Shown here piece by piece: positions 13,702-39,613 of a stretch of DNA of 57,194 nucleotides. Numbering within the stretch: the stretch's first letter is position 1; each line of letters starts with the position of its first letter. The notes below the pieces were generated by a model that saw nothing but the letters and a program-made list of their open reading frames with translations, had not been told where the DNA came from and did no database searches. The position numbers and the translations under genes are program-made. The DNA is from Halodesulfovibrio spirochaetisodalis. Its GTDB lineage: Bacteria; Desulfobacterota; Desulfovibrionia; Desulfovibrionales; Desulfovibrionaceae. The stretch spans positions 1-57,194 of the forward strand of contig NZ_JXMS01000023.1 of NCBI RefSeq assembly GCF_001672295.1, read 5' to 3'.

Positions 13702-15431
13702 TTTCAACAAAGCAACCTTCTCCCAAGCCTCAAAATGATAACTATGCGCGGCTGGCAAACTACATTGCAGATGCCTCGCATGAGGGCCAGAAGTGCCTTA
13801 TGGCGTGGAGCGCTGGCTGTATGGCTGGTGACGATTTTCAGTTGGGCATCTCTGAAGTTCTGGCAACTCAGGCTTGCAACACACGTACAAAGAAAGAAAA
13901 GACTTATCACCTGATTGTTTCATTTCGTCCAGAGGATGAGGCCAAACTTTCTGGGGAGGACTTTAAAGAGATTGAACAGCGCTTCGCAAAGGTACTTGGT
14001 TTTGAAGAGCATCAGCGGCACTGCGGAGTGCATAACAATACTGCGAATCCACATATGCACGTTGCCTACAATATGATTCATCCGGAAAAAAAGATCCGTC
14101 ATGCACCATATTATGATTACTGGAAGCGTGATGAACTGTGTCGGAAGCTTGAAAAAGAATATGGTGTATCCATAGACCCCGGCAGAAAGCAACGCAAAGA
14201 GCTTCATTGTTACCTGACGGATAGGAAGGTTAAGATTTTGCCGGCAGTGAAGGCAGCTCAGTCATGGGAGCATGTTCATGCGACGATGGCTTTGTACGGC
14301 CTGCAGGTGAGTTGTAAAGATGATGTTCAGTTTACGCCTTTTGAAGGAGCGGGGAGAGACTGCAGGGTTGCTGGTGCAGAGATTAACTCTTTGCTTAGTA
14401 AAATAGCCTTGGAAGAGCGTCTGGGCGCATTTGAGCCGAAGCAAAAGTTTTATCAAACGATGGAAGTCTTCGAGCCGAGTCCTTTGGATAAGTCCAAGAA
14501 GAACGATAAAGCGGAAACGATGGAGGCTTACACTGGCCAGGAAAGCTTTGATGGCTACTTGAAGCGGCATAAGGGAATTATTGACGCTGTGCGCGATTCT
14601 GCACGTTCATGGAAAGACTTCCAAAACATTTTGCAAGACGAGCTGAACGTCACAATCAAAGAGCGTGGCCGAGGCGCTGTCTTCGCTGACCTAACCGTAA
14701 GAGGAAAGAACCAGCCTCATGCAAAGTTGAGTAGCCTTGGCCGAGAATACTCACGATCAAAGCTAGAAGCTGAATTTGGCAAGCTTATCCCGCTCGAGCA
14801 AGGTAGAAAAGTAACTCCAAAACGTGAGTACAGCAGCAAGCCACTGCATCGTGATCCAGAACGTGTAAGGCTCCTGCAGGAATACAAAGCCAGTATCGCA
14901 AAACGCAAAGCCATGTTTGAGCAACAGAAGTCTGAGCGTGAGGTTGAGATGCAGAAACTGCGGCTGCAGTGGCAGGTAAGAATTAAAAAGTACCGTGTTG
15001 ACGGGGTATTAACATGGAAAGAAAAGCGCTACCTTATTAGCGTAGCTAAGGCCGAACAATTACGCCATGAAGAGCAGTTGAAGAAGAAGTATGCAGAGAA
15101 GCGATCAAAGATCAAAGAGGAAATCCCATACGGTAACTGGAACGAGTTTCTTCGACAGAAGGCTGAGAGCGGCAACAATGTGGCCTTGGCCGTATTGCAG
15201 TCTTCTAAGAATAAAGATCAGGCTGTATTTAAAGAACGCCCTGTTGAGAAGCTGCTGGAAGGTATGACGTACTCTGTCGATAACAAAGGTAACATCACCT
15301 ACAAGCTTACAGAGGGCGGTGTTGTGCTGGATAATGGCAAAGATATTGTTGCAAGCAAGGATGATGAGGCGCAGAAATTTGCCCAAAAGTTGAGAGGAAG
15401 ACGGTTTGGTCGAATGGTTCGTAATCAGTAG
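13698..15431 (+). CDS. MOBP/TraI-type relaxase
   Basis: 577 aa. N-terminal nicking domain: probable catalytic Tyr16 or Tyr22 region (NYARLANYIAD), His71 in YHLIVSFRPED, and the three-histidine metal motif HNNTANPHMHVAYN at 112-125. The rest (about 170-560) is charged and helical, with coiled-coil stretches near 395-460. It would nick oriT and carry the strand into a mating channel supplied by another element. The last codons (cgt aat cag tag) run into the tRNA-Thr(CGT) 3' fragment, so the coding end overlaps the attachment site. No coupling protein or mating-pair genes accompany it, consistent with a mobilizable, not self-transmissible, element. Confidence 0.88.
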   Translation: MISTKQPSPKPQNDNYARLANYIADASHEGQKCLMAWSAGCMAGDDFQLGISEVLATQACNTRTKKEKTYHLIVSFRPEDEAKLSGEDFKEIEQRFAKVLGFEEHQRHCGVHNNTANPHMHVAYNMIHPEKKIRHAPYYDYWKRDELCRKLEKEYGVSIDPGRKQRKELHCYLTDRKVKILPAVKAAQSWEHVHATMALYGLQVSCKDDVQFTPFEGAGRDCRVAGAEINSLLSKIALEERLGAFEPKQKFYQTMEVFEPSPLDKSKKNDKAETMEAYTGQESFDGYLKRHKGIIDAVRDSARSWKDFQNILQDELNVTIKERGRGAVFADLTVRGKNQPHAKLSSLGREYSRSKLEAEFGKLIPLEQGRKVTPKREYSSKPLHRDPERVRLLQEYKASIAKRKAMFEQQKSEREVEMQKLRLQWQVRIKKYRVDGVLTWKEKRYLISVAKAEQLRHEEQLKKKYAEKRSKIKEEIPYGNWNEFLRQKAESGNNVALAVLQSSKNKDQAVFKERPVEKLLEGMTYSVDNKGNITYKLTEGGVVLDNGKDIVASKDDEAQKFAQKLRGRRFGRMVRNQ

Positions 15432-15462
15432 GTCGTCGGTTCAATTCCGATTGTTGGCTCCA
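15418..15462 (+). other. att scar: 3' fragment of tRNA-Thr(CGT)
   Basis: The sequence reads as loop TTCGTAA (anticodon 15420-15422), stem TCAGT, variable AGGTC, T-arm GTCGG-TTCAATT-CCGAT, acceptor TGTTGGC and TCCA. The 5' side of the anticodon stem (ACTGA expected) is missing and is occupied by relaxase coding sequence. It is therefore an attachment scar, not a functional tRNA. No intact tRNA-Thr or left scar is visible in the window. Confidence 0.85.
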
Positions 15463-15469
15463 GTAAATT

Positions 15470-15512
15470 AAGGCATTTAGAAGATATTTCTTCTAAATGC
15501 CTTTCGTTTTTT
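15470..15512 (+). terminator. Terminator following the tRNA-Thr fragment
   Basis: A perfect 15-bp stem (15470-15484 with 15489-15503), 4-nt loop, then a T-rich tract. It begins 7 bp after the tRNA fragment, so it is probably the original tRNA terminator. On the other strand it may also stop transcription of the TIR-like gene. Confidence 0.85.
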
Positions 15513-15561: not shown

Positions 15562-16356
15562 CTAGAACGGTGACGCCATTCGAGTTTGGTGTTTTAAACA
15601 AATATCAACGCCAAAACCAGTTAGGTTAAAACAGTTGTAGGTGTTTCCGTGGTAATCGTCTTCTATGTAGCGTTCAATAAGGCCCATTCGTTCAAGCTTT
15701 ATGAGGGTCAGATTTGCTTCTGTAGGTAGGATAGTTAGCTCGTTAAGCTTACTGGTTAACGTGTAGTAAGAACTTCCTGTAGGAGATTCGTTGTAGCTTT
15801 CAAGAAGTAAGCGGAGCAGAGAAAAGTCACTTGAAGAGAGGTCAGATGAGACATTATTTAAGTCGACCTTTTGGGGGAGTGGTTGGTTAAGTGTTGTTAA
15901 AGGACCTTTGCTTTCTAATTCGGTTCGGATTTGATTACAGGCATAGCTAAGTGCTGAGGTAAGATTTCCGTCATTCCGATTTGCTTGATAAGTTGCGTTG
16001 GTGAGACCTGCGAGATCACTAGGCAGGTGAAGTTCAACTCCCCGGGGGGAAACGGTAAAGCAACGTTCTTTACCAATGCTTCCAATAAAAAGACCCAACT
16101 CAAATATGACATTATCCCTTACGGTGTGATGCTCTGCAGAACGAATGTTAGTAATGTCCTCAGGGGTAAATATGAATACTGCAAAGTCTACATGTTTAGC
16201 TGTAGTTGTAAGGTCGTCAAGAGCGTTGCTACTTAGTTTAAATATCCCAGAATCCCAAAGTGTAACTTCAGCGTCATATTCGAGGTTATGGCCAGTAGCG
16301 CGTGCAATAGGTAGACTCTCAACGGAAGAGCCAATAAATAGTCTAGGTTTTTTCAT
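15562..16356 (-). CDS. TIR-like (CAP12-type) effector with winged-helix-like C-terminus
   Basis: 264 aa. Residues 1-145 match the predicted nucleotide-binding TIR-like family by pattern: RLFIGSSVESLPIARA, VTLWDSGIFKLSS, FAVFIFTPEDI, VRDNVIFELGLFIG (putative catalytic Glu in FELG) and LHLPSDLAGLTNATY. Members of this family act as NAD-cleaving or related effectors in anti-phage systems. Residues 180-260 look like a winged-helix unit (LTLIKLERMGLIERY). The start lies 27 bp after the reverse transcriptase stop on the same strand, so it is very likely co-expressed as the retron effector. NADase activity is inferred from the family. Confidence 0.82.
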   Translation of the reverse strand: MKKPRLFIGSSVESLPIARATGHNLEYDAEVTLWDSGIFKLSSNALDDLTTTAKHVDFAVFIFTPEDITNIRSAEHHTVRDNVIFELGLFIGSIGKERCFTVSPRGVELHLPSDLAGLTNATYQANRNDGNLTSALSYACNQIRTELESKGPLTTLNQPLPQKVDLNNVSSDLSSSDFSLLRLLLESYNESPTGSSYYTLTSKLNELTILPTEANLTLIKLERMGLIERYIEDDYHGNTYNCFNLTGFGVDICLKHQTRMASPF

Positions 16357-16383
16357 GGGAGCTCCAATTGGTATGAGACAGCT

Positions 16384-18123
16384 TTATGCTTTATAAGCAG
16401 CAAGGGCTTTTTCTATGGCATCAAAAATTGGCTTAAATTCATCAAAAGTAAATACTAATTCCGTGTCCGGTCTTGCCAGTACTTGTGACGAAAAGTCTTT
16501 TTTAGAGCAGGCTATATTTTTCTTTTTTCCATTTATTGTCTTGATTACATCAGCGTCTAAAATATGCTTTTTATGAACCCAGCGTTTATCAAAAGGTTTT
16601 TTTTCAGAACAATAAGTAATTGATGAATTATCTTTTAATACACCTTGTTCCGTGAACTCATTGCTGAGATAGAGTCTACGTCCTGCGCTGTTTGCTCTTT
16701 TTAACTCTTCTTCTGGATATAAGTGCTCAATGCATAAGTTTGGAGTGTGACTTAGTAGTAACGTATAAACGTTGCTTCCTTGATGATGGTATAAGTTAGA
16801 ATTGTCTTTTCTCCCTCTTGCATATTTCACAGCCTGTTGTTCGTCAGTATCAAATAGAAAAAAGAGTTTGGAGTTTGTATTGTGAAGAAGTTTATAACGT
16901 TCAACCATCATTTTTAGATTACTAAAGCCGCCTTCCCAAACTGCTGGTGGAGGAGAAATAACTAGATTCAACCCGTTATATAGACCTTGGTTCCGAAAGT
17001 AGCGAAATGCTGCATATAGATGTTTCCAGTCGGTTTGCCCCTCACCAAAAAGATAATTTGAATCTGCATTGAGTGTAGGTACAGCGTCTAATAAGCCGGT
17101 TGGAATAGACCCTGTGCTTAAAATTAGGTGTTTTCGTTTGAGCTTCCGATATACAGGGTCATTTTCACCTCTTACCATTTTTAGGAATGCAAGTTTTCCA
17201 CACACAATTTCTTCAAGAGTCGCTTCTTCGCGGGGAGGATTGCTGCTTTTGTCACGATATCTTTGCTCCGCTTCAACATAGCCGTTGATATCCCAGTCAT
17301 GAAGTAATGCTCGAAGGTTTCGAATTTTTTTGCGTTGAATATTTGGGCGGCGATTAACTGTAAGTCCAGTTACCTCCATACGGGTACTGGGATGCGTATA
17401 GCGTGTTTTGCTCGGGTTCACTTCAAAACCGTTGTCATTGACAATTTTCTGAACTTCTTCAGAAAGAGTGATGTCGTATTTTGAAAGGGTTCCTATTTCA
17501 GGAGGAAGTTCTTTTTTCCATGTGGAGATACTAATGTCGTCAGCATACCTTGTGTAGGTACAGCCTGTGTTGACAGCCAGTTCTGTTAATTGTGTATCTA
17601 GCTTCCAACAGATCATGTTAGAGATTAGAGGCGATGTAATGCCGCCTTGAGGTAGTTTGTCTTCATAGCAAATGATATTAGCAAGAGATTGAGCTACATC
17701 AGGGTGTATGTTGAAGGGGGTAGCCATAAGTAAGCCCTGCACACGACCAAAGTGTATAGAGTCGAAAAAGTCTTTTAGATCAAATGTAACAAGATGTCTT
17801 TTTCTTGAATGCTTGTCGGCTCCAAAAACAATAGAGCGATTTTTAATGAAAGCAGAGGCGGATTTTTTAGGACGGTAAAGTGGAAGAAGTAGATGGTAAA
17901 CTTTTTCTTGCAGGGTTGTTATTGGCTTACGTGGGGCGCAAATAATTCGCACCCCTTTACTTTTTTTAGGGATTCCGAATTTTTTATAAGGTCGTGAGGG
18001 GAGCTTATATAAGATGTAGCATAAGCTACTTGTGCGAAATCCTAGTAGCCTGGCAAGATCCTTGTTGGATGATGCTTGCAATAACTCTTTAGTCGGAGTT
18101 GGGAGTGTTGTTTTATTTTTCAT
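16384..18123 (-). CDS. Retron reverse transcriptase with C-terminal Toprim-like domain
   Basis: 579 aa. RT domain about 15-270: FDLKDFFDSI (114-123), PQGGITSP (158-165), YADD active site (193-196), and VTG (251-253), the retron hallmark. Residues GADKH (101-105) occupy the retron NAxxH position in degenerate form. Residues about 350-570 form an extension twice the usual retron RT tail. FGEGQTDWKHLY (359-370) and FFLFDTDE (421-428) fit the Glu and DxD motifs of a Toprim nuclease/primase-like domain. The gene starts 8 bp downstream of a typical retron inverted-repeat ncRNA and is followed by a TIR-like gene. It should make msDNA from that RNA. The Toprim assignment is motif-based. Confidence 0.9.
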   Translation of the reverse strand: MKNKTTLPTPTKELLQASSNKDLARLLGFRTSSLCYILYKLPSRPYKKFGIPKKSKGVRIICAPRKPITTLQEKVYHLLLPLYRPKKSASAFIKNRSIVFGADKHSRKRHLVTFDLKDFFDSIHFGRVQGLLMATPFNIHPDVAQSLANIICYEDKLPQGGITSPLISNMICWKLDTQLTELAVNTGCTYTRYADDISISTWKKELPPEIGTLSKYDITLSEEVQKIVNDNGFEVNPSKTRYTHPSTRMEVTGLTVNRRPNIQRKKIRNLRALLHDWDINGYVEAEQRYRDKSSNPPREEATLEEIVCGKLAFLKMVRGENDPVYRKLKRKHLILSTGSIPTGLLDAVPTLNADSNYLFGEGQTDWKHLYAAFRYFRNQGLYNGLNLVISPPPAVWEGGFSNLKMMVERYKLLHNTNSKLFFLFDTDEQQAVKYARGRKDNSNLYHHQGSNVYTLLLSHTPNLCIEHLYPEEELKRANSAGRRLYLSNEFTEQGVLKDNSSITYCSEKKPFDKRWVHKKHILDADVIKTINGKKKNIACSKKDFSSQVLARPDTELVFTFDEFKPIFDAIEKALAAYKA

Positions 18124-18130
18124 AATAAAT

Positions 18131-18274
18131 ACTTACGCAAAAGGACCTGTCATGTGCGAACACGCAGGTTACCCCAAGGGTTACAGAGAACATAGAGAAA
18201 CTGTTAGCAGCAAGGTGGAAACCTTGCCTGCACCGCTGCAGGAACAACAGCGAAAATCGTCCTTTTGCGCAAGT
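18131..18274 (-). ncRNA. Retron msr-msd non-coding RNA
   Basis: A 16-bp inverted repeat (18259-18274 with 18131-18146, one mismatch) brackets 144 nt and matches the a1/a2 pairing that defines retron ncRNAs. Inside are at least three hairpins: GCAAGGT/ACCTTGC around 18209-18226, an imperfect one around 18167-18186, and GTG-CGAA-CAC around 18154-18163. It is transcribed on the minus strand and ends just before the reverse transcriptase start codon. The branching guanosine and the msd boundaries cannot be fixed by eye. Confidence 0.85.
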
Positions 18275-18281
18275 GGTTAGC

Positions 18282-18310
18282 TTTTAATGAAGATCTGTTG
18301 ATTGTGTCAA
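18282..18310 (-). promoter_or_regulatory. Sigma-70 promoter of the retron
   Basis: Minus strand: -35 TTGACA (18310-18305), 17-bp spacer, -10 TTAAAA (18287-18282). The predicted start lies near 18275, exactly at the first base of the a1 repeat, which supports both the promoter and the ncRNA boundary. Confidence 0.75.
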
Positions 18311-18379: not shown

Positions 18380-19498
18380 TTATGACGATTTAAGCTTGTG
18401 TATATGATGTAGAATGTTTGCACTTGAGCGTCCATCTGTACCATCTTCTGGAACAAATCCATTAATTATACCATAAAAGTCGTCACCTAATGATCTGCAG
18501 CGCATGCTTGTTTTTAATTGCTGGGCCTTGTGCTTCGTAAAAAGAATATCGCGTGCGTGACGATAAACACTTTCGTAATTTGAATGCTTGATAAGGTTCT
18601 GTGCATTTTTTTTGATTTGAGAGACAAATTGCGCGCGTTGATGAGGGTCGTGTATTTGGATGACATAGCCAGCTTCTTGCGTTTTAAACCTTTCAAGTAG
18701 CTTGTCGGTTAACCAGTCACCTTCAACTTTGTGCGAGTATTTCGTTTTAAAGGCATTACCAGTAAACTCTAGCAACTCGTTTAAAACCGATTCAATGTCT
18801 ATAATCGATTCTTCTAAGGAAAATATATTGATTCCAGAATATGCACCGTCCCAGAATACATCACCAATCATGCTTTCGCCTTGTTGGTAGCGCATTTCAA
18901 GGTTGTACGAGAGATCTATTGTATTCGTGATATGAGTCTCGGAGTCTTTTTTATCACCAAGTATGTTTTTGATGTCGTTTCCTAACTTATCAAATTGAGA
19001 CAGGAGCTTTTTAATTGTTTCAGTGTCTGGAGTGACTTTCTCCAGAGTATATGAGGTCGTTACTTGTTCAGAATTGTTATTGGGGAATAACAGGCTATAA
19101 AGTCTGCTTCTGTTTGCGAAGTAGAACTTTTTCTTTGAAGAACGCTCGATGTCATCGAGGAGTTCAGAGAAGAGTTTTTTGTGGTTAATATAGCTTTCTA
19201 ATTGAGAGAGTTTTAATTGCTCACGCATCAACTGTGATTGCTGTTCAATGAAGTCTCTATTCTCTTTTTGCATCTCTCGGTTAAATGATACCAGATAGAT
19301 CAGTGTTGCAAGGGATAGAGCCGCAGCTGCTAAAGTGAAGATGCCAGCATATAATGAACCATATTCACCCCATGGAAATGAGGGCGATACGAAGGGCTGT
19401 GGGTTAGCGTAGTGATAAATTGTGATGAGCCCCGCAGGAATGCCCAGTGCAAGGATGCAAAAGGTTACTGCAATTGGCAGCCATTTGTTACTTTTCAT
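18380..19498 (-). CDS. Two-TM protein resembling putative AbiC-type abortive infection proteins
   Basis: 372 aa from the ATG at 19498; a GGGGG ribosome-binding sequence 7-8 nt upstream favours this over the TTG at 19510. There are two N-terminal membrane helices (about 6-27 and 46-66). A charged helical linker follows (about 68-105, FNREMQKENRDFIEQQSQ), then a soluble C-terminal domain. This architecture resembles proteins annotated as putative phage abortive infection proteins (AbiC-like). Its place in a defence island fits, but no catalytic motif is visible. It diverges from the Sel1 gene over a short shared upstream region (90 bp). Confidence 0.6.
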   Translation of the reverse strand: MKSNKWLPIAVTFCILALGIPAGLITIYHYANPQPFVSPSFPWGEYGSLYAGIFTLAAAALSLATLIYLVSFNREMQKENRDFIEQQSQLMREQLKLSQLESYINHKKLFSELLDDIERSSKKKFYFANRSRLYSLLFPNNNSEQVTTSYTLEKVTPDTETIKKLLSQFDKLGNDIKNILGDKKDSETHITNTIDLSYNLEMRYQQGESMIGDVFWDGAYSGINIFSLEESIIDIESVLNELLEFTGNAFKTKYSHKVEGDWLTDKLLERFKTQEAGYVIQIHDPHQRAQFVSQIKKNAQNLIKHSNYESVYRHARDILFTKHKAQQLKTSMRCRSLGDDFYGIINGFVPEDGTDGRSSANILHHIHKLKSS

Positions 19499-19588
19499 TA
19501 TTACCCCCAAGGTTTACATAACGTCTGTAAATCTTGGGTTTTGTTTTAGCAATAGGTGTTTTTACGGTGAAAAGTAGGAGGAGCTGCA

Positions 19589-21759: not shown

Positions 21760-23010
21760 TTATCTTCGTACCTTATTGCGCAACGCCATCCCGAAGAAGG
21801 CTAGCTGAGCCCATATGATCCCTTTCCAGACCTGTTGGAATACTTTGATGGGAAGAGATAGGTTGGTAAGGTTGGCCACATTCCCCCAGTACGGAATAAA
21901 TCCAAGTGAAATGTCAGCTGTTGTGGTGGCAGCAGGCGGAGTTATCATCAGTCCGAATAAAAGCGGAAAAGCTATTGTGACGGCTGCTAAGATGGAAAAG
22001 GCTCTGCCGGGTGATTCTCCATAATGGCTTATGAACCGGTAGCAATGTAGCGTTGCGAGAAGGAAATAGTCTTTTTCTGCTTTGACTCTTTTGAGTGTGA
22101 AATATTTTTCGCAACAGTGCCAAAGAGACATTCCTCCCATATCGGAAAGGGCAAGGGACTTGGCTTTCCAATCACGGGCGATCTGTTCAGTAACAATTCC
22201 ATCTTGCTTTATTGTTTCAAGCTTGGGCCAGTGGCAGTTGTTTAAAGTAAGCTTGGCTATTTCGGCAGTTCCCAACTGAATCTTTGAAAGGGGCATGCTT
22301 TGTAGTGTAAGCATATTATTTTCAAGAGTTAGGTTTGTAAGGTCTAATGAGGTTTGAATGTTACATTCTTCGAAGTTTATTTGCTTGTGGAAGCTAGATC
22401 CCTTAAAGCTACCTGATTGAAAGTTGACATTGGAGAAGCTGGCATTGTTGCTAAAACTGACCGAGTCAAAAGAGACGCTTTTGCAAAAAGTAATACAATA
22501 AAAGAAACTAGATTTAATTTTGGCATCTTGGAACGTAACATCATTTTCGAAAATACAATTTGAAAATGAGATATCGAGGAAAATATCGTCAGAAAAAAGT
22601 GTTTGTTCTGAAAAAACACAACTATTAAAGTGTACAGGAGGTACAAAGTTTGAAAACTCATCAAAGTTTTCAAGCATAAATTCTTCATTAATAAGTTTTT
22701 CACTTAAGTAGAGAGCTTCAGCAATATTTATATCTGTGTTGCTTTTTTCATCCCAATTTTCACGATAGTAATGATTCCGTAATTTTTCAGAGATTTCGTC
22801 AGGGGTTATAATGGTAAGTGCATCTCTATTTATTCGTGGGGTTCTCATCATAATTAGCTGCTTTAATTTGTCTAATTGCGTTAAGTTGCGTACATGGAAG
22901 TAACATTTTTTCCACATATTTCTTTTTGACCCAACTACGCCTATTGCATGAACGTTGCTAATGTTAGAATATAAAGAATTTTCATCGTAACCTTCCGTTA
23001 AAAGACTCAA
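21760..23010 (-). CDS. Pentapeptide-repeat protein with C-terminal membrane segments (5' end chimeric)
   Basis: Up to 416 aa. Residues about 120-270 carry degenerate pentapeptide repeats (phenylalanine every five residues, e.g. SFSNNASFSNVNFQSGSF), predicted to fold as a right-handed beta helix. Residues about 330-410 contain two to three hydrophobic segments (ILAAVTIAFPLLFGLMI). The frame begins with a TTG inside an IS3 orfB fragment, so the first residues come from IS sequence. The original start is lost or lies at an internal ATG such as 22917. The gene is probably truncated at its 5' end. Proteins of this shape occur in defence islands; the function is unknown. Confidence 0.6.
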   Translation of the reverse strand: MSLLTEGYDENSLYSNISNVHAIGVVGSKRNMWKKCYFHVRNLTQLDKLKQLIMMRTPRINRDALTIITPDEISEKLRNHYYRENWDEKSNTDINIAEALYLSEKLINEEFMLENFDEFSNFVPPVHFNSCVFSEQTLFSDDIFLDISFSNCIFENDVTFQDAKIKSSFFYCITFCKSVSFDSVSFSNNASFSNVNFQSGSFKGSSFHKQINFEECNIQTSLDLTNLTLENNMLTLQSMPLSKIQLGTAEIAKLTLNNCHWPKLETIKQDGIVTEQIARDWKAKSLALSDMGGMSLWHCCEKYFTLKRVKAEKDYFLLATLHCYRFISHYGESPGRAFSILAAVTIAFPLLFGLMITPPAATTTADISLGFIPYWGNVANLTNLSLPIKVFQQVWKGIIWAQLAFFGMALRNKVRR

Positions 23011-23203: not shown

Positions 23204-24430
23204 TTATTCCCAAATGAAATAATTAACCGAAAGCTCTGCAAGGCAAAAAGGAACCAACGAAATTGTTCCACCACACCCTTCAATTTTCGAATTAAATGAC
23301 CACACTGTGGGGTGCTGAGAGATTGACGGATACAAGATAATTCCTTGTTTTGATTTCGTAGCCTGCATGTATGAAAATATTTGATATTCATCGTGTTTTG
23401 ATAGCTTACTGGATTCCAGAAACTTCCATTTTGCGTCAGCGACAATTTTTTCTGTTGTTTCAAACTGATAATCAGGTCTCGGAGACTTTAGCCCAGAAAA
23501 CCATGAAATGCTTTTTTGGGCTTTGAAGTTTGTGAGTTGTTCTGATTGCTGCAATGTTTTTTCAACGGTTTTTTCAAAAACTGTTGCCATATCGAAGAGG
23601 ATCGCGACAGAGTTTTGTGCTCCGCATTGTAAGGTCGGTGGAACTAGCAATATAAAGCGGGCGAAATACAGCGCAGCCTCATAACGCTTCATCAGTCGGC
23701 CTGTTCTGCATTGGTCGAAATGGCGTTTTTCTACGTTTGGAATTGTTGAAACTCCATCAAAGAGCACAAGCAATTGTTTAGCTAATCGTTTATTCGTTAG
23801 CGAAGCTGCAATGCGGGTTATTTTCCAGAGTGCCGAACAGAGCAGCGCATTCTCGATACAGTTCGGGCAATAGTCGTCATATGTGCAACACAGTTTATGT
23901 GCTGCAGCAGCGTTCGCTCTAACTTGTTGTGTAAAGTTAATTCTACCTTTTTTGTTGCGACGGTTCTCTTCATGTTTAATGTAGTCGTTTTGAAGACCAT
24001 GCACTGATAGTCTTTGCACTTCGATAAGAAATGCGTGGATAAAAACCTCAAGCAGTGTGTGACCGCCTGTAGCAAGTAACGCCGACTTTGCTGTCCGGTA
24101 TGTCAGCAGACCAGAGCGCTCAAGCATTCGACAGAGCAGTGTTCGAGCGTCATCTTTCTTCTCATCATGATCACGGTATATTTTAGGCAAAATCTCGATG
24201 ACACTGCCATCGGATGTCCGAATTACGCCCACATATCGCCAACAAACGGTCTTCTTACTTCCAAATGATGAAAAAACGTACTTATCTTTATCATCAATGT
24301 GTTCCGTATTACCTTTCACGAAAATCGTTTGCGTTTCTAGCCCCTGCAGCTCTTGAATTGCTTGATGAGAAAGCACGCCGTTATCAAACGGCGTACTTTC
24401 AAACAGAGTAAGTGGGTTACTAGCTGGCAC
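23204..24430 (-). CDS. mcrC: McrC-like restriction nuclease subunit
   Basis: About 408 aa from the GTG at 24430, which overlaps the mcrB stop by 11 bp; the frame is open to a TTG at 24490 but mcrB coding occupies that stretch. The N-terminal half has the McrC pattern (VGVIRTSDGSVIEILPKIY). The C-terminal half has a PD-(D/E)xK nuclease core: RPDYQF followed by VADAKWK. McrC is activated by the McrB ring to cleave modified or otherwise marked nucleic acid. It is the last gene of the helicase-mcrB-mcrC operon. It is of ordinary length, without the long coiled coil of some McrC relatives. Confidence 0.88.
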   Translation of the reverse strand: MPASNPLTLFESTPFDNGVLSHQAIQELQGLETQTIFVKGNTEHIDDKDKYVFSSFGSKKTVCWRYVGVIRTSDGSVIEILPKIYRDHDEKKDDARTLLCRMLERSGLLTYRTAKSALLATGGHTLLEVFIHAFLIEVQRLSVHGLQNDYIKHEENRRNKKGRINFTQQVRANAAAAHKLCCTYDDYCPNCIENALLCSALWKITRIAASLTNKRLAKQLLVLFDGVSTIPNVEKRHFDQCRTGRLMKRYEAALYFARFILLVPPTLQCGAQNSVAILFDMATVFEKTVEKTLQQSEQLTNFKAQKSISWFSGLKSPRPDYQFETTEKIVADAKWKFLESSKLSKHDEYQIFSYMQATKSKQGIILYPSISQHPTVWSFNSKIEGCGGTISLVPFCLAELSVNYFIWE

Positions 24431-26531
24431 GTTCTTGCAGCTCTTCTGTTTTAGTCTTCGCCTCTGGGTATTCCTTCTTGAGGGCTTCAATAAATTTATC
24501 GCTCCCTAGTTGGTCAATTCTGTATGTCGTCTTAATTGGAAATGAACTAGGCACGGCTAAGGTAAAATCCCTAACGATCTCCTTACCAAGAATCATTTGA
24601 ATTTGAGCGTAGTCATCAAAGAAGTATTCCTGAAGCTGTGGAAGAACCTTATTCATAATGACGTGTTGAAGTTCTTCAGTTGTTGAAATGACTTTTGCAT
24701 TTTGCATGAAATAGCCATGCCCAATTGTGTGCTCACGGTCGAGAAGTGCTTCCATTCTTTGGTTCATGGATGTCAGGAGTTCAGTCAGATCAATACCGCT
24801 GATGATCGTGTTTTCTAAGAGTGTCGGCTGTGGCATCATTTCAATAAAATGGAATCGACGACGTAGCGCTGTGTCCAAGTGAGTTAAAGAGCGATCAGCT
24901 GTGTTCATGGTTCCAATAATGAATAAGTTTTCTGGAACGCTAAATGTAGCGCCTGAAGCAAGTTGTATCGGGTATTCGCGCTTGTCCTCTTCAATAAGTG
25001 TGATCAGTTCACCGAAGATTTTAGAGACATTACCGCGATTAATTTCATCAATTTTTAATACATAATTTTTTGTAACTGCCTGCTCATTCTCTTGTTTTTT
25101 ACTGAAAAGCCGTTCCAGTTCTTCTTCATTTAACCTTCCATTGAGACTGTAAATAGTACGCTGGGATACACTTTTCGTAAGCAGTGTTGTTGCTTTAATG
25201 GGATTGTCGTTGTTGTGCCAAATCCATTTGATAGAACGAGCGTGACGGTAGCGGTGATGGAATGAATGTTCCGGTATAAATTTGTATTCGCCTGTTAATT
25301 GACCTATTGCTCTGATCCCGCCTTTATTACCTTTTGTGACAAATATTAAGTCACCAACTTTCATATCAAATATGAATTGTCTCATCATAGAGACGACTGA
25401 ACTTTTGTAGTTTTGTTCATAGAGGTAATCTGTAAATGATGAGGCTGTTGCGATGTGTTCAGAGATGTCTTTATTGACAAAGCCGAGGAGTACCTCATTG
25501 CTTTTGATACAATGTTTAAAAATAGTGGTTCCTTCCTCTGTGGCGGTGTTGCCGAGAGACATCTTCCACACATTTGCAGTGGAGGTGTCCAATTCGTCCT
25601 TTATCTCTGCTTGATCGCGAATGTTATCTAGTTCTGCTTGATGGACGATCTCTCTAAATACTCCGTTCCGCATTACATACTGGATATTGGTGCTTTCTGC
25701 ATTTTCTTCATCCTCAGTTAATACAGGTTGAATGCCCTCAACGAAATCTTCATATCCATAAGAAGGGTGGAAAGTCACAGAACGTACTTGAGAGTCCGGA
25801 AGGTCCGCAACGAATTCCAATCCTTCAACAGTTCCATTAATCAATGCATGGGTTTTACCGGTACCTGGAGGGCCATAGAGAATGATGTTTTTTGATTGTG
25901 GTAGTAAGTAGCCCGTTTCAGAAATTTCTTCTTTATGCTTTGCAGCATATTCCAGAATTTTATCGCCAAGTTCAAAAAGATTGGAGATGGAAGGCTCTGT
26001 TAACGATTCAAAAAGCTTTTTGTTTAGTTTGAACATTTCGCTACTTTTTTCGCCAGTGTACAGTTGAAGAGCAGCAGGAGTAAAAATGTTGCTGATGCAG
26101 AGGGAGTCCTGATTCTGGTATAAAAAAGCAATTTTCCATTTCACCATCGAGCTGAGCTGACTCTTTTGGATAGCTTCTAGATTGCCTTTTTGCGCATGTT
26201 TTATAATTTCTAGGATGAGTCTTTTTACATTCAAGAAGGCGTCTTCTGCGCTTATACCAAAGCGTTTTTGCCATGCGTCAGTTTCTGAATACATTAAGTG
26301 AGTTCGTTTCGATATTTCTGCATCTTTAGAGCGAGAGTACACACCAAATTTAAAAGCTGTTGAGCCAGAGATGTTACCGAGCTTTTGTGTTTTGAATTCT
26401 AGCCAATAGCAGAAAGTATCGTGTGAGCCTTTACTGGAATACTCGTGGTATTCCATCTTTTCTACATTTTCTTGAGTCCAACGGGTGAGGAAGTCGTTCC
26501 AGAGTTTTTGTTTATCTGTATGAGTAGTCAT
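24420..26531 (-). CDS. mcrB: McrB-like AAA+ GTPase with inserted EVE-like domain
   Basis: 703 aa. Residues 1-130 are a recognition-type N-terminal domain of unclear family. The AAA+ core has Walker A GPPGTGKT (220-227), the McrB Walker B region KIDEINRGNVSKIFGEL (493-509) and the signature MNTADRS (542-548). Between Walker A and Walker B, about 319-468, lies an inserted domain that reads like an EVE/PUA-like base-binding domain (WKMSLG, KVGDLIFVTKGNKGGIRAIG). EVE domains bind modified bases in DNA or RNA. The ribosome-binding sequence AAAGGA precedes the ATG. The gene is 68 bp downstream of the helicase gene and feeds into mcrC. Confidence 0.9.
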   Translation of the reverse strand: MTTHTDKQKLWNDFLTRWTQENVEKMEYHEYSSKGSHDTFCYWLEFKTQKLGNISGSTAFKFGVYSRSKDAEISKRTHLMYSETDAWQKRFGISAEDAFLNVKRLILEIIKHAQKGNLEAIQKSQLSSMVKWKIAFLYQNQDSLCISNIFTPAALQLYTGEKSSEMFKLNKKLFESLTEPSISNLFELGDKILEYAAKHKEEISETGYLLPQSKNIILYGPPGTGKTHALINGTVEGLEFVADLPDSQVRSVTFHPSYGYEDFVEGIQPVLTEDEENAESTNIQYVMRNGVFREIVHQAELDNIRDQAEIKDELDTSTANVWKMSLGNTATEEGTTIFKHCIKSNEVLLGFVNKDISEHIATASSFTDYLYEQNYKSSVVSMMRQFIFDMKVGDLIFVTKGNKGGIRAIGQLTGEYKFIPEHSFHHRYRHARSIKWIWHNNDNPIKATTLLTKSVSQRTIYSLNGRLNEEELERLFSKKQENEQAVTKNYVLKIDEINRGNVSKIFGELITLIEEDKREYPIQLASGATFSVPENLFIIGTMNTADRSLTHLDTALRRRFHFIEMMPQPTLLENTIISGIDLTELLTSMNQRMEALLDREHTIGHGYFMQNAKVISTTEELQHVIMNKVLPQLQEYFFDDYAQIQMILGKEIVRDFTLAVPSSFPIKTTYRIDQLGSDKFIEALKKEYPEAKTKTEELQERAS

Positions 26532-26599: not shown

Positions 26600-29500
26600 T
26601 TATCGCTGTGCCTTGAGCATGGATAGACTCGCCTCAATCTTCTGAATGAACTCTCGAATTTCTTTTCCCCGGTACAAAATGGAGTGTTCAAGGTTTGCAT
26701 ACTGCCCCCTATTGGCCGAAAGCCAGTTGAAAGAGCCTTCCACAACAGTGTGGTTATCCACCTTGATGGTTTTGTTATGCAGTCTGGAAGTGAATACGAT
26801 GGTAGCGCCACTTGCTTTTAATGCCTCAGTTATCTGTGCGACAGCTTGCTGATTGTAGTTGTTCACCTGCTGAATGCATTTGATGTCGGTATAAATTTTA
26901 ACTGGAACGCCACGAGATTTTGTATTGGCTATTGCTTCGCAGATCATATCTGCCTGAAGAGCATTGTGCGTGATATATGGCGACACGATGGTCAGTTCTT
27001 CGCGAGCTTGCTCGAAGCATTGCTTTAAAACTCGCCGGTGATCATCAAGTGAGCTGAGGTGTTCAATAGCTGCTGACAGATTACGTTCAATTAACTTGAA
27101 ATCTTTCAGTGCATTTTGTCCGGATTCGAAGCAGAGGTGCTTGGCAAGTATGCCTGAAGGCTTAGATGACTCCGGGTTGAATAGTTCCATGTTCCCGAAA
27201 ACAATAAACGAGTCTTTGGCGCGTGAAACTGCAACATTGAGCATGTTAAGCTTCCGATCAACAAATGAAAGGGCATTATCGTCCAATCCGTAAACAGGAG
27301 AGAGGAGGATAATCTTCTTTTCTGCGCCTTGCATTTTGTGAACAGTGCCTACGACGATAGCTCGTGCGTCAGCCTCTGGCAGTTTGCTCTTGAGCTGTTG
27401 CTTTATCTCAGATGACTGAAGCTTAAATGGAGTTACGATGGCAATAATCTCTGCGAGATTTGAAGCACCGTAATGAGTGAGAATCTTCTGCCGGTTATCT
27501 GCAAGCCACTGTGCGATGTTTGCTGCTTCATATGTATTGTAGCGACTCCCATTTCGCTTTTCACTGAAAGATGGAATGTTCGCGTAACCTAATTGAGGAT
27601 ACAAAAAAGAGTCAGCAGGGCGCTCTTGAGTAAGTACTTCTAAATTCGGGTATGTTAATTCTTTGCAGTAATTGATGACAGTTTTCGGACAGCGACGGTG
27701 CTCTAGAAGGTGCATGCCTCTTTCTTTGGCTGGAGTGTCATTAATAGTTAACTGAAACGGGGTTGCCCGTTGTGCGAGTAACATTGCATTACTTTTAGAT
27801 ATGGTGAGATGGTCGAGTGTTTCCTCATTAGCAATTAGTCCAAAGCGTTCAATGTTACCAAGGTCAGCATCTTCAGAAAGAGAAACAACAGGTTCAATTT
27901 GATGCACATCACCAACTACCAAAGCTTTTTTGGCCAACGCGAAAACTATGGCTGCTTTGTCGATAGAAGCCTGGCCGGCTTCATCGAAAATGAGAAGATC
28001 AATGCCTCTAAAAATTGGCTTTCCACTCTGCGACATAAGCTTCGGTGTCATAAACAAGGTAGAAACGATGCAAGGTGTGAGCATTGAAATACGGCGCAGC
28101 TGTTCTGTTGCACTCAGTTTAGGAGCTTGCGTGCTTTCAAAGTCAGTAATTGTTTGCTCTAGCCAAAGTGCTTCGTAATAATGAATAGCAAGTAAGAAGA
28201 TTGTATACCGGTTGTTTGTGTCAGCATGGGAGAGAAGGGTGTATAAGTCATCCTTTGCAAACTCTTGTGACAAAACAATTTTATCAAAACAGGCATGTGT
28301 TTTTTTGATGATATTGCTCAACTCGGTTAAGCGCTGTTTATTTTGGATATGCTGCGCCGTTATTTTCTGCAGCTTGTTGTTGGCAGCATCTAAAGTCTGT
28401 TGAGCAGCCTTTTTAGCGTTCGAAAGACTTGTGAGTTTAGCCATCAACCGATCGCAGATGCTTGCAATGTCCTTGGGAGTAGAGGTGATGTCTAAGTCAT
28501 GTCGGAGCATGAACTCAGTGGCGTATGCTTTACGTTTACTTTTGAGAAACGGTAAGAATTTCGCTAAGCCGAACCAGAACGGTTCATTCTTGCTTGCCGC
28601 TAAGGCATGTTGGACAACTTGTTTATGTTCAGAATGCCTTTTTTCATGCTCTCTATATTCTGTAAGCGAATCCTTCTGAATTGCTTCACACGCAGTTACA
28701 TTCGATTCAAAATTTGCAAGAGCAGTGGCTAGTTCTTCACTTTCTTGTACCGCAACATACCCAGCCATCCAATTGGATACATCAGTGCCTACAGCATCCT
28801 TTAGAGAGATGATTTGGTCTCGCAAATCGCTTTGGATAGCTCTTAGGTTTTCGAGACGAGAGCTGGAGTTACACTGATTACCTGTGAATTCTTCATAGCT
28901 CTTAAGAATCGCGTGATAAGCCTCTGATGTATATTTCTCTGATTCCAATTTAGAAAAGAAACCTTCAAGAGCACTATATGAGCCATTCCATTCATGACAG
29001 GCCGTAAGGTAGTCACTGGTCTGGCCGGCTTTTGATGAAGAGAGGTAATACGTACCTAGGCTATCTATTTTACCAGGAAGCCAACGACGTTCGAGGATGT
29101 TGGAGCTTTCAGGTTTAAGAACAGTCGCGAAATCTCGAATAACGTTTGTTACTGCCTGATTATTAGATGATGTCGCAACGATGATAGGAGGAATTGTTTC
29201 GCCACATGGACTATCGATAATGGCATTGACCCATTCTGAAGCAATGGCACTTTGGAGTAGAGTAGTTTTTCCTGTTCCAGGAGGGCCATTGACCGCAAGA
29301 ATTTCATCTTCATCACAAGCAAAGTAATGATGCATGGTTTGACGTTGGGAAGCGCCTAGCCCAAAGCTATTACTCATTTGAGCAGTATGAAAAGAAGACG
29401 CATTTGCTGCTTCATCTTCTATCTGAAGTGTCTCTCTAACTTCCTCTGTGCCTGAAACAAGTTTTCCATACAGAGCTGGTGTATTCTTTTCGATAAGCCT

Positions 29501-30124
29501 GTCGTAAGCTTTTCGTATTTGCAATGTGATGAAGTTGTTGCTTTCATATCGGAATGCAACCGGCTTATGGGAAGCAATGTACTGCACTCCATTAAGCGTG
29601 ATTAAACCTTCATCGTCGACAGGACATAGTTTTTGAATAGCTTCTATCAGATAATTAAAATAGGCAGCCCAACCAAGAGCATGGAATTCTTGCCGGTCTT
29701 CGGCAAGGATGGCGCGAGCATCATCTAAATTACCTAGAGTAAATGCCTCTTTGTTTACAAGAGGACGTAAGTTTTCACGATTGAACCATGGGTACTGATC
29801 TTTAATGGCGGAAAGTCGTTGTGACTCTTTGTTGAATGAGCAGGGTGCCATGAGAGGAATAATTTTTTCCGGAGAAATCGCAGTTCCCTTTTGGGTAGCG
29901 AGCCTCTGGAAGCACATAGGCGCAATGACAATTTGAAAATTTTTAAGGTGCTTATATTCTTTCGGAGCTAAGCGCAGTATCTCTTTTGAAGTAACCTTGC
30001 CCTGCTGTAGTTCTTCTCCATTTAACAGGACTGCGCGGCTGTCTTGATATGAACCAAAGGAAATAAGCTCTTCGTCAAGGGACGTGCGAAAGTAACGGGT
30101 AATCTGCTCGAGTGTCGGCTGCAT
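26600..30124 (-). CDS. SF1 (Upf1/Dna2-like) helicase with coiled-coil insert and C-terminal PLD nuclease domain
   Basis: 1174 aa. Walker A GPPGTGKT at 280-287, Walker B DEAGQ near 713, motif III-like VVGDVHQIEPV, and helicase motif VI-type LNVAVSRAKDSFIVFGN near 970. A helical, coiled-coil-rich region (about 470-620) is inserted between the two halves of the first RecA-like domain. Residues about 1030-1170 form a phospholipase-D-like domain with HxK...D in RLHNKTIKVDNHTVVEGSFN (about 1112-1131). It is first in an operon with mcrB and mcrC, so helicase, PLD nuclease, EVE-AAA motor and PD-(D/E)xK nuclease are probably co-expressed. An aattagatt/aatctaatt inverted repeat lies upstream (30144-30188). 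Confidence 0.9.
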   Translation of the reverse strand: MQPTLEQITRYFRTSLDEELISFGSYQDSRAVLLNGEELQQGKVTSKEILRLAPKEYKHLKNFQIVIAPMCFQRLATQKGTAISPEKIIPLMAPCSFNKESQRLSAIKDQYPWFNRENLRPLVNKEAFTLGNLDDARAILAEDRQEFHALGWAAYFNYLIEAIQKLCPVDDEGLITLNGVQYIASHKPVAFRYESNNFITLQIRKAYDRLIEKNTPALYGKLVSGTEEVRETLQIEDEAANASSFHTAQMSNSFGLGASQRQTMHHYFACDEDEILAVNGPPGTGKTTLLQSAIASEWVNAIIDSPCGETIPPIIVATSSNNQAVTNVIRDFATVLKPESSNILERRWLPGKIDSLGTYYLSSSKAGQTSDYLTACHEWNGSYSALEGFFSKLESEKYTSEAYHAILKSYEEFTGNQCNSSSRLENLRAIQSDLRDQIISLKDAVGTDVSNWMAGYVAVQESEELATALANFESNVTACEAIQKDSLTEYREHEKRHSEHKQVVQHALAASKNEPFWFGLAKFLPFLKSKRKAYATEFMLRHDLDITSTPKDIASICDRLMAKLTSLSNAKKAAQQTLDAANNKLQKITAQHIQNKQRLTELSNIIKKTHACFDKIVLSQEFAKDDLYTLLSHADTNNRYTIFLLAIHYYEALWLEQTITDFESTQAPKLSATEQLRRISMLTPCIVSTLFMTPKLMSQSGKPIFRGIDLLIFDEAGQASIDKAAIVFALAKKALVVGDVHQIEPVVSLSEDADLGNIERFGLIANEETLDHLTISKSNAMLLAQRATPFQLTINDTPAKERGMHLLEHRRCPKTVINYCKELTYPNLEVLTQERPADSFLYPQLGYANIPSFSEKRNGSRYNTYEAANIAQWLADNRQKILTHYGASNLAEIIAIVTPFKLQSSEIKQQLKSKLPEADARAIVVGTVHKMQGAEKKIILLSPVYGLDDNALSFVDRKLNMLNVAVSRAKDSFIVFGNMELFNPESSKPSGILAKHLCFESGQNALKDFKLIERNLSAAIEHLSSLDDHRRVLKQCFEQAREELTIVSPYITHNALQADMICEAIANTKSRGVPVKIYTDIKCIQQVNNYNQQAVAQITEALKASGATIVFTSRLHNKTIKVDNHTVVEGSFNWLSANRGQYANLEHSILYRGKEIREFIQKIEASLSMLKAQR

Positions 30125-37688: not shown

Positions 37689-38201
37689 TCAGTTAAAAGT
37701 GAATATAGGAGTGACTTTGTGGAGTGCAGCGGCATCCACAAGGCCAAAGTATCTGCTGTCAAAACTGTCTTGGTGGTGGGTTGATAATAACAACGCCTTG
37801 CCTTTTGGAATGACTGCGCTGTGCAGTTTGTGCGGCAGGCTGCGGCCTTTGCTGTCATGAGTGCGTGCTGTGAGTCGGTAGTAGGTCGTGTTCACTTGAA
37901 TAGTATTAGAATGCACAGTGACGACATCGCCAGCAGTTCCAACCAGCTCCTTAACAAGAGGCTTCTGACCGGAAGGGCAGAGCAGGCTTGTGCCGAGATA
38001 CGTGCGCGAAAGAGAAAGCTCTAAGTATTCGTTCTCTGGAGAGAGGCAGAAGCTTGCAAGATCTCCTCGTGTAGGTGTTTCATTTTCTAGCTTGTAGAGT
38101 CCGATGGGTTCGGAGTGCGTGAGGTTGAGCCGGTAGTCTAAATGAAAGGCGGTAGTGAGAAGGAGTGCGATGCCACAAACAATAAACAAAGTTACGCGCA
38201 T
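37689..38201 (-). CDS. traF: Conjugative transfer signal peptidase TraF
   Basis: 170 aa. One N-terminal membrane anchor (residues 3-20, FIVCGIALLLTTAFHLDY). S26 family residues: Ser in NLTHSEPIGLY, Lys in PLVKELVGTAGD, then SFDSRYFGLVD near the C-terminus. In RP4 this enzyme cyclises and matures the TrbC pilin. It overlaps the end of the traG remnant by 10 bp. It appears intact, although pilin and mating-pair genes are absent from the window. Confidence 0.85.
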   Translation of the reverse strand: MRVTLFIVCGIALLLTTAFHLDYRLNLTHSEPIGLYKLENETPTRGDLASFCLSPENEYLELSLSRTYLGTSLLCPSGQKPLVKELVGTAGDVVTVHSNTIQVNTTYYRLTARTHDSKGRSLPHKLHSAVIPKGKALLLSTHHQDSFDSRYFGLVDAAALHKVTPIFTFN

Positions 38202-39613
38202 GATTCCTCCTCAAAGTCAGGTTCTTCAATTTCAAGCTCATCGAAATCCAGTTCTTCACCGTCAAATGTAGGCTCGTCGTCAAAGACTGGCTCGTCTTCT
38301 AGATTGTACTCCGGAACATCCGTGGCCGGAGCTTTCGTGGTGGATACTTCTGCTGCAGGCTCAACTGCATAGACCGCAGGGGATTTTGTTTCTTCGACGT
38401 CCTTTTTCTCAGGGACAAGACGGTCAGAAGCACGAGGCGCTGGAACCTTCGATCGTTCTGAAAAGACAGGATCGAGGAAATAGAGAATCTGCTTTCCGTA
38501 TATCGGCGGGAAACCGGCAGGAAAAACGAGCATGTCACCGGCTTCGATAATCTGCTTGTTAGCGTCTTTTTTTGCACCGGGAAGTCTCATGCATTCGTCT
38601 GCAGTAAGTAGAGCGCGGCCGGTTTCAGCTACGCTTACACTTGCACGACTCAGGTGTCCTGAGCGGCTTCCAGAGAGAGAGGTTTTCTTTGTGACGACCG
38701 TTGTTTTACCGGTCATATCTGACAGAACCTTGGCCGTTTCCACTTTATTGGGTGCGTAGGCGATGCGGACATGGCAGTTACTCATGATGCTTTCGTCCTT
38801 GGTCTACGCTGCATGGAGCTGGGTTAAGTCCTGTACGATGAAATATGCTTTCAGGCCGAAGCCTGCCATAAATGCGAGAGAGCGCTCGAAGATCTCTAGT
38901 TTGCCAAGGGACGTGAACTCATCCATCATGAGTAGAAGGTGATATTTGTAGTTTTCAACGGAACGACCGTCCGCAAATTCCATATCTTCTGTCAGCCGAC
39001 GCAAGATGATGTTGAGGATAAGGCGGATCAGCGGTCGCAGACGGTCAATGTCTGAAGGACGAATCACCAGATATAGCGACACAGGCGCTTCGTAATTCAT
39101 GAGATCATCAATGCGGAAATCGCATTCGGATGTATTGGCCGCAACAATTAGATCACGATAGAGCGCAAGGTTCGCTACAGCCGTGAAAACAACACCGGAC
39201 AGCTCGTTATCTGCCTTGTTGAGCATTTCGCGGGCTGAAGAGGCTATGAAACGCTGAACACTGAGAGACTCTTCTTTGCTTGCGCCGAGAAACTCCTGCA
39301 GCACAATTGCCTGTTCAGAGTTGAGCATTTCCTGAAAGAGGATTGCGTTTTCTTTTTCCGGATCAGCAAGCATGAGGCCGAGGTCGCTCAACGTAGCAGT
39401 TCGATTTTCTTTGCGCCTGACCTCAATCAGGCAATGCAGAATAGCGCCGCCCAGTAAGGCAAACGCAGCCTTATTCCAGTAGTCTTTTAACCCCTTGCCG
39501 TCCGGATCAACGATCATACTGGCAATGTTCTGTGTGTCTGCAATGGCGTGCACTGTATGGAGTCTGATTTCTGCAGGCGGGTTGAACCGCGCGCCGCTTG
39601 CTGTTGCTTCCAT
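38192..39613 (-). pseudogene. traG: Broken coupling-protein gene traG (VirD4-like)
   Basis: Two in-frame pieces (39613-38804 and 38785-38192) are one traG. The Walker B part (YHLLLMMDEFTSLGKLEIFE) ends at LTQLHAA, a TAG stop at 38804-38806 follows, and the same frame continues TKDESIMSNCHVRIAYAPNK. The C-terminal part has SLSGSRSGHLSRA and DECMRLPGAKKD, matching RP4 TraG. The N-terminal membrane helices and Walker A are missing. Homology begins about residue ARFNPPAEIR, just after a junction near 39620. It cannot couple a relaxosome to a channel in this form. Confidence 0.88.

Follow-up and report, generated by a model that had tools for sequence, protein, structure and literature searches.

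A divergent RT-Toprim retron and a neighbouring, probably autonomous TIR gene in Halodesulfovibrio spirochaetisodalis

Introduction

Among described systems, the retron Eco2 (Ec67) joins a reverse transcriptase (RT) and a Toprim domain in a single protein, for which several structures have been solved (9lm3, 9i2f, 9s1f); this RT-Toprim design is labelled type I-C in PADLOC. Here we analyze a locus of the same design in a 57,194-nucleotide stretch of DNA from Halodesulfovibrio spirochaetisodalis (NZ_JXMS01000023.1, positions 1 to 57,194; hereafter, the window). On the minus strand of this window, a structured noncoding RNA (ncRNA) is followed by an RT open reading frame (ORF) and, after a gap of 27 bp, by a gene for a TIR-domain protein. 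An earlier note on this DNA had proposed a complete retron with two effectors, one fused to the RT and the other encoded by the TIR gene.

A published account of Eco2 (PMC12405507) describes the free Toprim domain as a toxic RNase, and the complex with multicopy single-stranded DNA (msDNA) as self-inhibited; this msDNA is probably damaged by the phage nuclease DenB. The same account gives K562 as the catalytic lysine of the Toprim domain and places the branching guanosine, rG15, right after an inverted-repeat stretch. For TIR enzymes, a second account describes the roles of the residues in the nicotinamide adenine dinucleotide (NAD) pocket of SfSTING (PMC9402430). Titles and the opening lines of abstracts in the literature searched mention no retron with a separate TIR partner or with two effectors.

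Results

The RT-Toprim fusion

The locus is, very probably, an Eco2-like single-protein RT-Toprim retron that lies beside an autonomous TIR gene. Direct support comes from the parts of the locus (Table 1), the predicted fold and kept active-site residues of the fused effector, the structured ncRNA, and the sampled relatives, in which RT and TIR genes are unlinked.

The RT half of the fusion is matched by Pfam RVT_1 over residues 51-256 (E 1.3e-23) and by PADLOC retron RT models, and its best solved-structure matches are the chains of Eco2 (9i2f, E 1.1e-58). It carries YADD at residues 193-196 and VTG at 251-253, as the earlier note had read; an alignment of the window sequence with six relatives shows no variation at Y193, D195, D196, V251, or G253. 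The same seven sequences also share the tail residues E361, G362, D365, D425, D427, and E466 without exception. The earlier note had seen Toprim-type E...DxD motifs in this tail and proposed structure prediction against Toprim folds as a check; the Toprim fold is backed by structure prediction and by comparison with solved structures. The tail of the RT can be taken as a true Toprim effector domain.

Two PADLOC RT-Toprim_I-C models, PDLC02965 and PDLC02968, match the fusion over nearly its full length (E about 1e-125), and the tail alone matches them at E 1.9e-20 and 1.1e-21, respectively, far better than it matches the other I-C models. Because these two models already match its RT branch, we judge the retron to be of a known kind; the RT-Toprim fusion is an established design, and the fused effector is not new.

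The Toprim module, recognizable by EGxTDxxH and DxD, is also found without an RT. It stands at the N-terminus of an NB-ARC protein (L016:5989-8658; L numbers are our handles for loci) and C-terminally on AAA/SMC-like ATPase proteins of viral contigs (L104:3822-5657, L105:3687-5645, L108:3684-5645, L109:2714-4675), with phage portal genes adjoining the Toprim-ATPase genes of L105 and L108; in L015:5710-7161, L106:4599-6083, and L107, it has no assigned N-terminal family. Judging by these architectures, a single Toprim effector seems to serve several different sensors. A search with the Toprim tail across 395 genomes of the phylum recovered the genome of the window and one partial match of 128 residues (G709).

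The retron ncRNA

The ncRNA adjoining the RT is real, since the stretch 18124-18290 folds far better than shuffled sequences (-62.7 kcal/mol, where shuffles average -40.8 and none of 200 does as well) and is closed by the a1 and a2 arms, which lie within an inverted repeat of 21 nt that is 86% complementary (18126-18146 and 18259-18279). This bears out the inverted-repeat ncRNA of the earlier note, as does an RNAalifold alignment of the window with seven relatives, which gives an msr-type hairpin of seven pairs; three of the seven have changed on both sides, with pairing kept, in some sequence. Among nine relatives, the upstream inverted repeat is clear in L002, L003, L005, L006, L007, L010, and L019 and weaker in L004; in L012, which stands outside the RNAalifold alignment, GAGCACTTG and CAAGTGCTC bound a stretch upstream of the RT, and a motif like the msr hairpin can be made out, both by eye. 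L019 has no obvious msr hairpin. A guanosine directly follows the a1 arm in the window, L003, L005, and L006; by analogy with rG15 of Eco2, G18258 is a candidate branch point.

No Rfam family reaches its gathering score in the window, and the two matches near the ncRNA are at chance level (E 3.7 and 5.8), counting neither for nor against a retron RNA. The promoter claimed in the earlier note is the weakest part of the locus: a perfect TTGACA is found by eye, with no good -10 box after it, and a consensus promoter scan lists no promoter at the retron start (six sites found in the region, with 9.6 expected from shuffles).

Table 1. Coordinates of the features of the locus, in window positions
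Feature	Position	Strand	Basis
TTGACA, possible -35 box of retron transcript (weak)	18305-18310	-	by eye, perfect match
Retron ncRNA (msr-msd), a1 and a2 arms included	18131-18274	-	inverted repeat; fold of 18124-18290, z -6.04; similar stretches in relatives
Arm a1 (ACTTGCGCAAAAGGAC)	18259-18274	-	inverted repeat; counterparts in relatives
Candidate branch-point guanosine	18258	-	first base after a1
msr hairpin, UUCC in loop	18233-18253	-	RNAalifold, 8 sequences
Arm a2 (GTCCTTTTGCGTAAGT)	18131-18146	-	inverted repeat; counterparts in relatives
RT ORF, 579-aa fusion	16384-18123	-	ORF list
Retron RT domain, residues 1-334	17122-18123	-	Pfam RVT_1, Eco2 chain match, PADLOC retron RT models
C-terminal Toprim effector domain (predicted), residues 335-579 and stop	16384-17121	-	alignment, predicted model, solved-structure search
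TIR gene, 264 aa	15562-16356	-	ORF list; PF10137, E 3.2e-31
TIR domain, about residues 1-150	15907-16356	-	PF10137, E 3.2e-31; Cap12 and PycTIR chains in PDB
TIR protein C-terminal tail, about residues 151-264	15562-15906	-	no Pfam match
3' part of tRNA-Thr(CGT) gene	15418-15462	+	matches intact same-genus tRNA-Thr(CGT) genes

Placement of the RT

The RT phylogeny proposed as a check in the earlier note places the window RT outside the Ec67-type retrons. In a tree of 83 RT domains, the 43 rows with the other, Ec67-type Toprim tail form one clade (100/100); the window RT belongs to a set of 40 rows, comprising 10 with its own type of Toprim tail, 14 with protease tails, eight TIR-fused, and eight with unassigned tails. 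The tree covers RT matches up to E 1e-20 with at least 230 RT residues, each distinct RT domain once; the own-genome loci L001 and L017, the loci L009, L011, and L103, and loci fetched later stand outside it, as does the Ec67 sequence itself. Seven of seven tested rows of the clade pass the cut-off of 450 bits of the NCBIfam model for retron Ec67 (NF038237; 469-752 bits). Against this model, the window RT scores 317.7 bits over 12-577, and all three same-tail relatives tested also fall under the cut-off (L002, 379; L005, 393; L010, 376). On this score, we do not count the window RT as part of the Ec67 family in the narrow sense.

Scored against PADLOC, the RT domain alone reaches 396 bits with type XI, 385 with type XII, and 337 with the best I-C model. 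RTs matching types XII and XI carry TIR_2 and trypsin-like tails, respectively. An assignment of the window RT to type XII (RT-TIR) was rejected: its tail is Toprim, and NF042941 matches over positions 1-320 of 464 only, with 327.6 bits against a cut-off of 600. In one locus of the wider RT collection, on an Escherichia coli plasmid (L011:2779-4414), the annotation splits the RT and TIR-domain parts into two ORFs that overlap in different frames. On the tree, the label for the window's own type of Toprim tail needs five changes, at least two of them forced by well-supported branches; tails have therefore probably been exchanged.

The TIR gene and its relatives

The TIR-like gene that the earlier note had read behind the RT is confirmed by its PF10137 match. 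Pfam has no match to its tail, and no PDB match is significant; a winged-helix idea for this tail, whose sole basis was a non-significant MarR-like match (E 0.21), is not claimed. In a Cap12 alignment with positions counted by hand, R80, N82, E86, and D114 align with R78, N80, E84, and D110 of SfSTING (structure 7un8), and the catalytic glutamate and NAD-pocket residues appear to be kept. A predicted model from a two-sequence alignment has a mean predicted local distance difference test score of 33, too low for the model to be usable.

Homologues with 44-47% identity over the whole length, tail included, occur on three plasmids (Spartinivicinus pB, Vibrio pAQU2, and a Pseudomonas fragi plasmid), where they are annotated as nucleotide-binding protein, and in two near-identical prophage loci (L110 and L111), where the TIR copies are unannotated and integrase, tail, and GPD genes lie nearby, as in P2-like prophages. 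Querying the plasmids with the TIR protein of the prophages again gave these same three full-length records. Viral contigs yielded no relative with the TIR protein alone as query and two loci with a four-row TIR alignment; phage records gave no match to the TIR protein, and E. coli genomes none to the prophage TIR DNA. The protein is probably autonomous and, by analogy with SfSTING, NAD-consuming, with its tail as its own sensor.

Association of RT and TIR genes

The further suggestion of the earlier note, that the TIR protein is another effector of this retron, finds no support among the loci sampled. With own-genome loci set aside, 98 other loci have a related RT, and in 88 of these the downstream sequence extends for 300 nt or longer; of the 98, in which PF10137-type TIRs were sought, a single one has a PF10137-like ORF (L043), which lies 1.4 kb off on the opposite strand and matches weakly (31 bits). 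Conversely, a retron RT is seen in none of 10 other TIR loci, including all five with full-length homologues; in L103, one of these TIR loci, the upstream RT is that of a group II intron. The same-tail relatives number nine loci, or eight distinct ones (L007 and L009 hold the same gene), and none of the seven distinct loci with a readable downstream flank has a TIR gene; L012 ends 30 nt past the RT, and L006, whose RT is cut by a contig end, is not counted among the nine. As far as sampled, then, close relatives lack the adjacent TIR gene, an outcome that the earlier note had itself named as refuting its proposal. In L002, a different gene of 343 residues follows 62 bp behind the RT, with a DUF2511 match that stays below the cut-off (E 0.0012); we read it as another unrelated neighbour.

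In genome surveys, with the search thresholds applied, related RTs occur in eight of 348 genomes of the class and TIR relatives in two of 345, the own genome included, and the corresponding counts for the phylum samples are six and two of 395; in both surveys, the two lists share the own genome only. These genome searches were centred on the own genome, so that the same-tail relatives come mostly from its family, and the loci they supplied have flanks of about 1.5 kb. A scan of bacterial genome contigs with a single-sequence query gave five loci, where an alignment query would probably find more, and the viral scan took in the best 80 of 385 RT relatives. From plasmid records, two of the 199 that matched the RT and five of the 37 that matched the TIR were fetched; from the 38 phage records that matched the RT, none was. 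The survey of spacing between RTs and their neighbours considered 85 other RT ORFs, of at least 420 aa each.

Genomic setting

A tRNA-Thr(CGT) gene is represented just past the TIR gene by its 3' part, unique within the own genome (at two mismatches or fewer). Intact tRNA-Thr(CGT) genes whose 3' part is identical or almost so occur in four same-genus loci (L116, L117, L118, and L120); the fifth, L119, has no intact copy. We read the fragment as an integration scar beside the RT-TIR pair, and the presence of several matching copies in two same-genus genomes (three in G203, two in G208) suggests an integration hotspot. The stretch 15418-15503 combines this 3' part with a terminator-like hairpin and overlaps the end of the relaxase gene.

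One flank of the RT-TIR pair holds integrase genes and the relaxase; the other holds Sel1, an insertion sequence transposase, a pentapeptide protein, McrBC-type genes, MkoC, a zeta-toxin-like gene, a topoisomerase, ArdC, and a coupling protein. The RT and TIR genes both look like mobile-element cargo. The retron RT is present once in the own genome and in none of nine other same-genus genomes searched.

Upstream of the retron, on the same strand, is a 376-aa protein (18380-19510) that appears membrane-anchored by eye and has no family match in Pfam or PADLOC. Further along, a pentapeptide-repeat protein (21760-23010), with a C-terminal stretch that is hydrophobic by eye, stands next to defence genes. 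These include an McrBC-type pair (23204-26531), in which an McrC-like gene (PF10117) accompanies the gene of an AAA protein with an N-terminal match to PADLOC PD-T4-1 (E 7.6e-22), and a Mokosh-type defence gene for an MkoC-like protein (26600-30124; PADLOC E 6.2e-295), a helicase with a PLD domain. The coupling protein (TraG/VirD4 type, conjugative; 38192-39613) is split over two adjacent ORFs and is perhaps broken.

Discussion

With Eco2 (msDNA, auto-inhibition, RNase) and SfSTING (NADase) as precedents, msDNA synthesis, auto-inhibition, RNase activity, and NADase activity would all be expected of this locus. The RT would reverse-transcribe part of the upstream ncRNA into msDNA, and the msDNA-RT complex would keep the fused Toprim nuclease in a closed state; once a phage damaged the msDNA, the Toprim domain would be freed to cut RNA and stop the infected cell. 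The TIR protein would act apart, consuming NAD once its tail senses some cue. Its gene may share the retron transcript or just the neighbourhood, and both genes would be cargo of a mobile element.

Several observations weigh against this explanation. Within the Toprim domain, S513, which Eco2 uses in its second metal site, corresponds to C464 in the window alignment, and that alignment does not allow the counterpart of the catalytic lysine K562 to be placed. The TIR gene lies so close behind the RT, on the same strand and with a ribosome site that is plausible by eye, that the two genes may well be co-transcribed. Within the same wider set, some RTs (L029 and L053) carry fused TIR domains from a different family, so retrons can employ a TIR as their effector. 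Further, the same-tail sample is small, with eight distinct loci and seven testable, and no same-tail relative in the tree exceeds 43% RT identity. A dual-effector retron, in which one msDNA restrains both the Toprim nuclease and the TIR NADase until infection frees both, would accommodate the short same-strand gap and the TIR fusions elsewhere in the set, as well as the NAD-pocket residues that appear to be kept. We consider it very unlikely, given the one distant, opposite-strand PF10137-like ORF among 98 RT loci and the solitary state of the full-length TIR homologues; the spacing itself is weak evidence of one system, since same-strand neighbours are common in defence regions. No likelier is a locus-specific variant, with no conserved system behind it, in which the RT-Toprim retron has freshly recruited a normally autonomous PF10137 TIR into its transcript; if true, one msDNA sensor would control an RNA-cutting and an NAD-consuming effector. 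A two-effector retron would be of greater importance, but the evidence speaks against one: what stands of the earlier proposal is a complete-looking retron whose RT carries a Toprim domain, and what lacks support is the TIR protein as its second effector.

One refinement of the single-protein retron beside an autonomous TIR gene, to which we give an even chance, is that the two independent systems share one transcript, the TIR protein defending alone while its gene profits from the retron promoter. The solo TIR homologues fit this arrangement, as does the short gap, for which the scan lists no promoter-like site; however, such a site does lie within the RT gene on the same strand (16656-16627, about 270 bp ahead of where the TIR gene starts), although sites as strong as this turn up no more often than in shuffled sequence, and neighbours in defence regions may adjoin by chance. 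That the retron is decayed or inactive debris of a mobile element might be read from its single copy and its absence from nine other genomes of the genus, but the intact ORF, the kept catalytic residues, and the structured ncRNA make this highly improbable. The least probable explanation is that the TIR protein belongs to a cyclic-oligonucleotide-based antiphage signalling system (CBASS), as Cap12, or to Pycsar, as PycTIR. Its PF10137 match and its PADLOC matches to 'Effector, TIR' (E 2.1e-50), a CBASS label, and to PycTIR (E 9.1e-40) invite this assignment; yet the likeness is confined to the TIR part (residues 3-156, aligned to the first half of a model of 312 positions, at 121 bits with a cut-off of 450), the tail has no sensor-domain match in Pfam, and the neighbouring ORFs scanned include no nucleotide cyclase.

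The locus is thus best described as a divergent but recognizable RT-Toprim retron with an unrelated defence neighbour. It adds to the known retrons a divergent member outside the Ec67 clade, with its ncRNA visible, in a set whose tails include Toprim, protease, and TIR domains. As its Toprim module also occurs on NB-ARC and ATPase proteins, the retron offers a useful comparison for the swapping of effectors between sensors.

Set against the described systems, the locus has the general features of a retron, namely an RT with YADD and VTG and an adjoining structured ncRNA with a1 and a2 repeats, and those of type I-C in the broad sense, with a Toprim domain bearing the catalytic E and DxD fused to the C-terminus of the RT. 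Unlike Eco2/Ec67, its RT falls outside the 43-row clade and below the Ec67 cut-off, its tail is 25% identical to that of Eco2, and a separate TIR gene stands behind the RT; from PDLC02965 and PDLC02968, no systematic difference was found. In PADLOC's labels, the RT domain scores best with types XI (RT-protease) and XII (RT-TIR), but their tails are trypsin-like or TIR_2, whereas that of the window is Toprim, and the TIR of the window, unlike that of type XII, has its own gene and comes from a different TIR family. This TIR protein resembles solo PF10137 proteins over its full length, beside which no retron was found. With Cap12 and PycTIR it has in common the TIR domain and NAD-pocket residues, and it differs from them in lacking a match to a STING-like or cyclic-nucleotide domain and a cyclase among the neighbours scanned.

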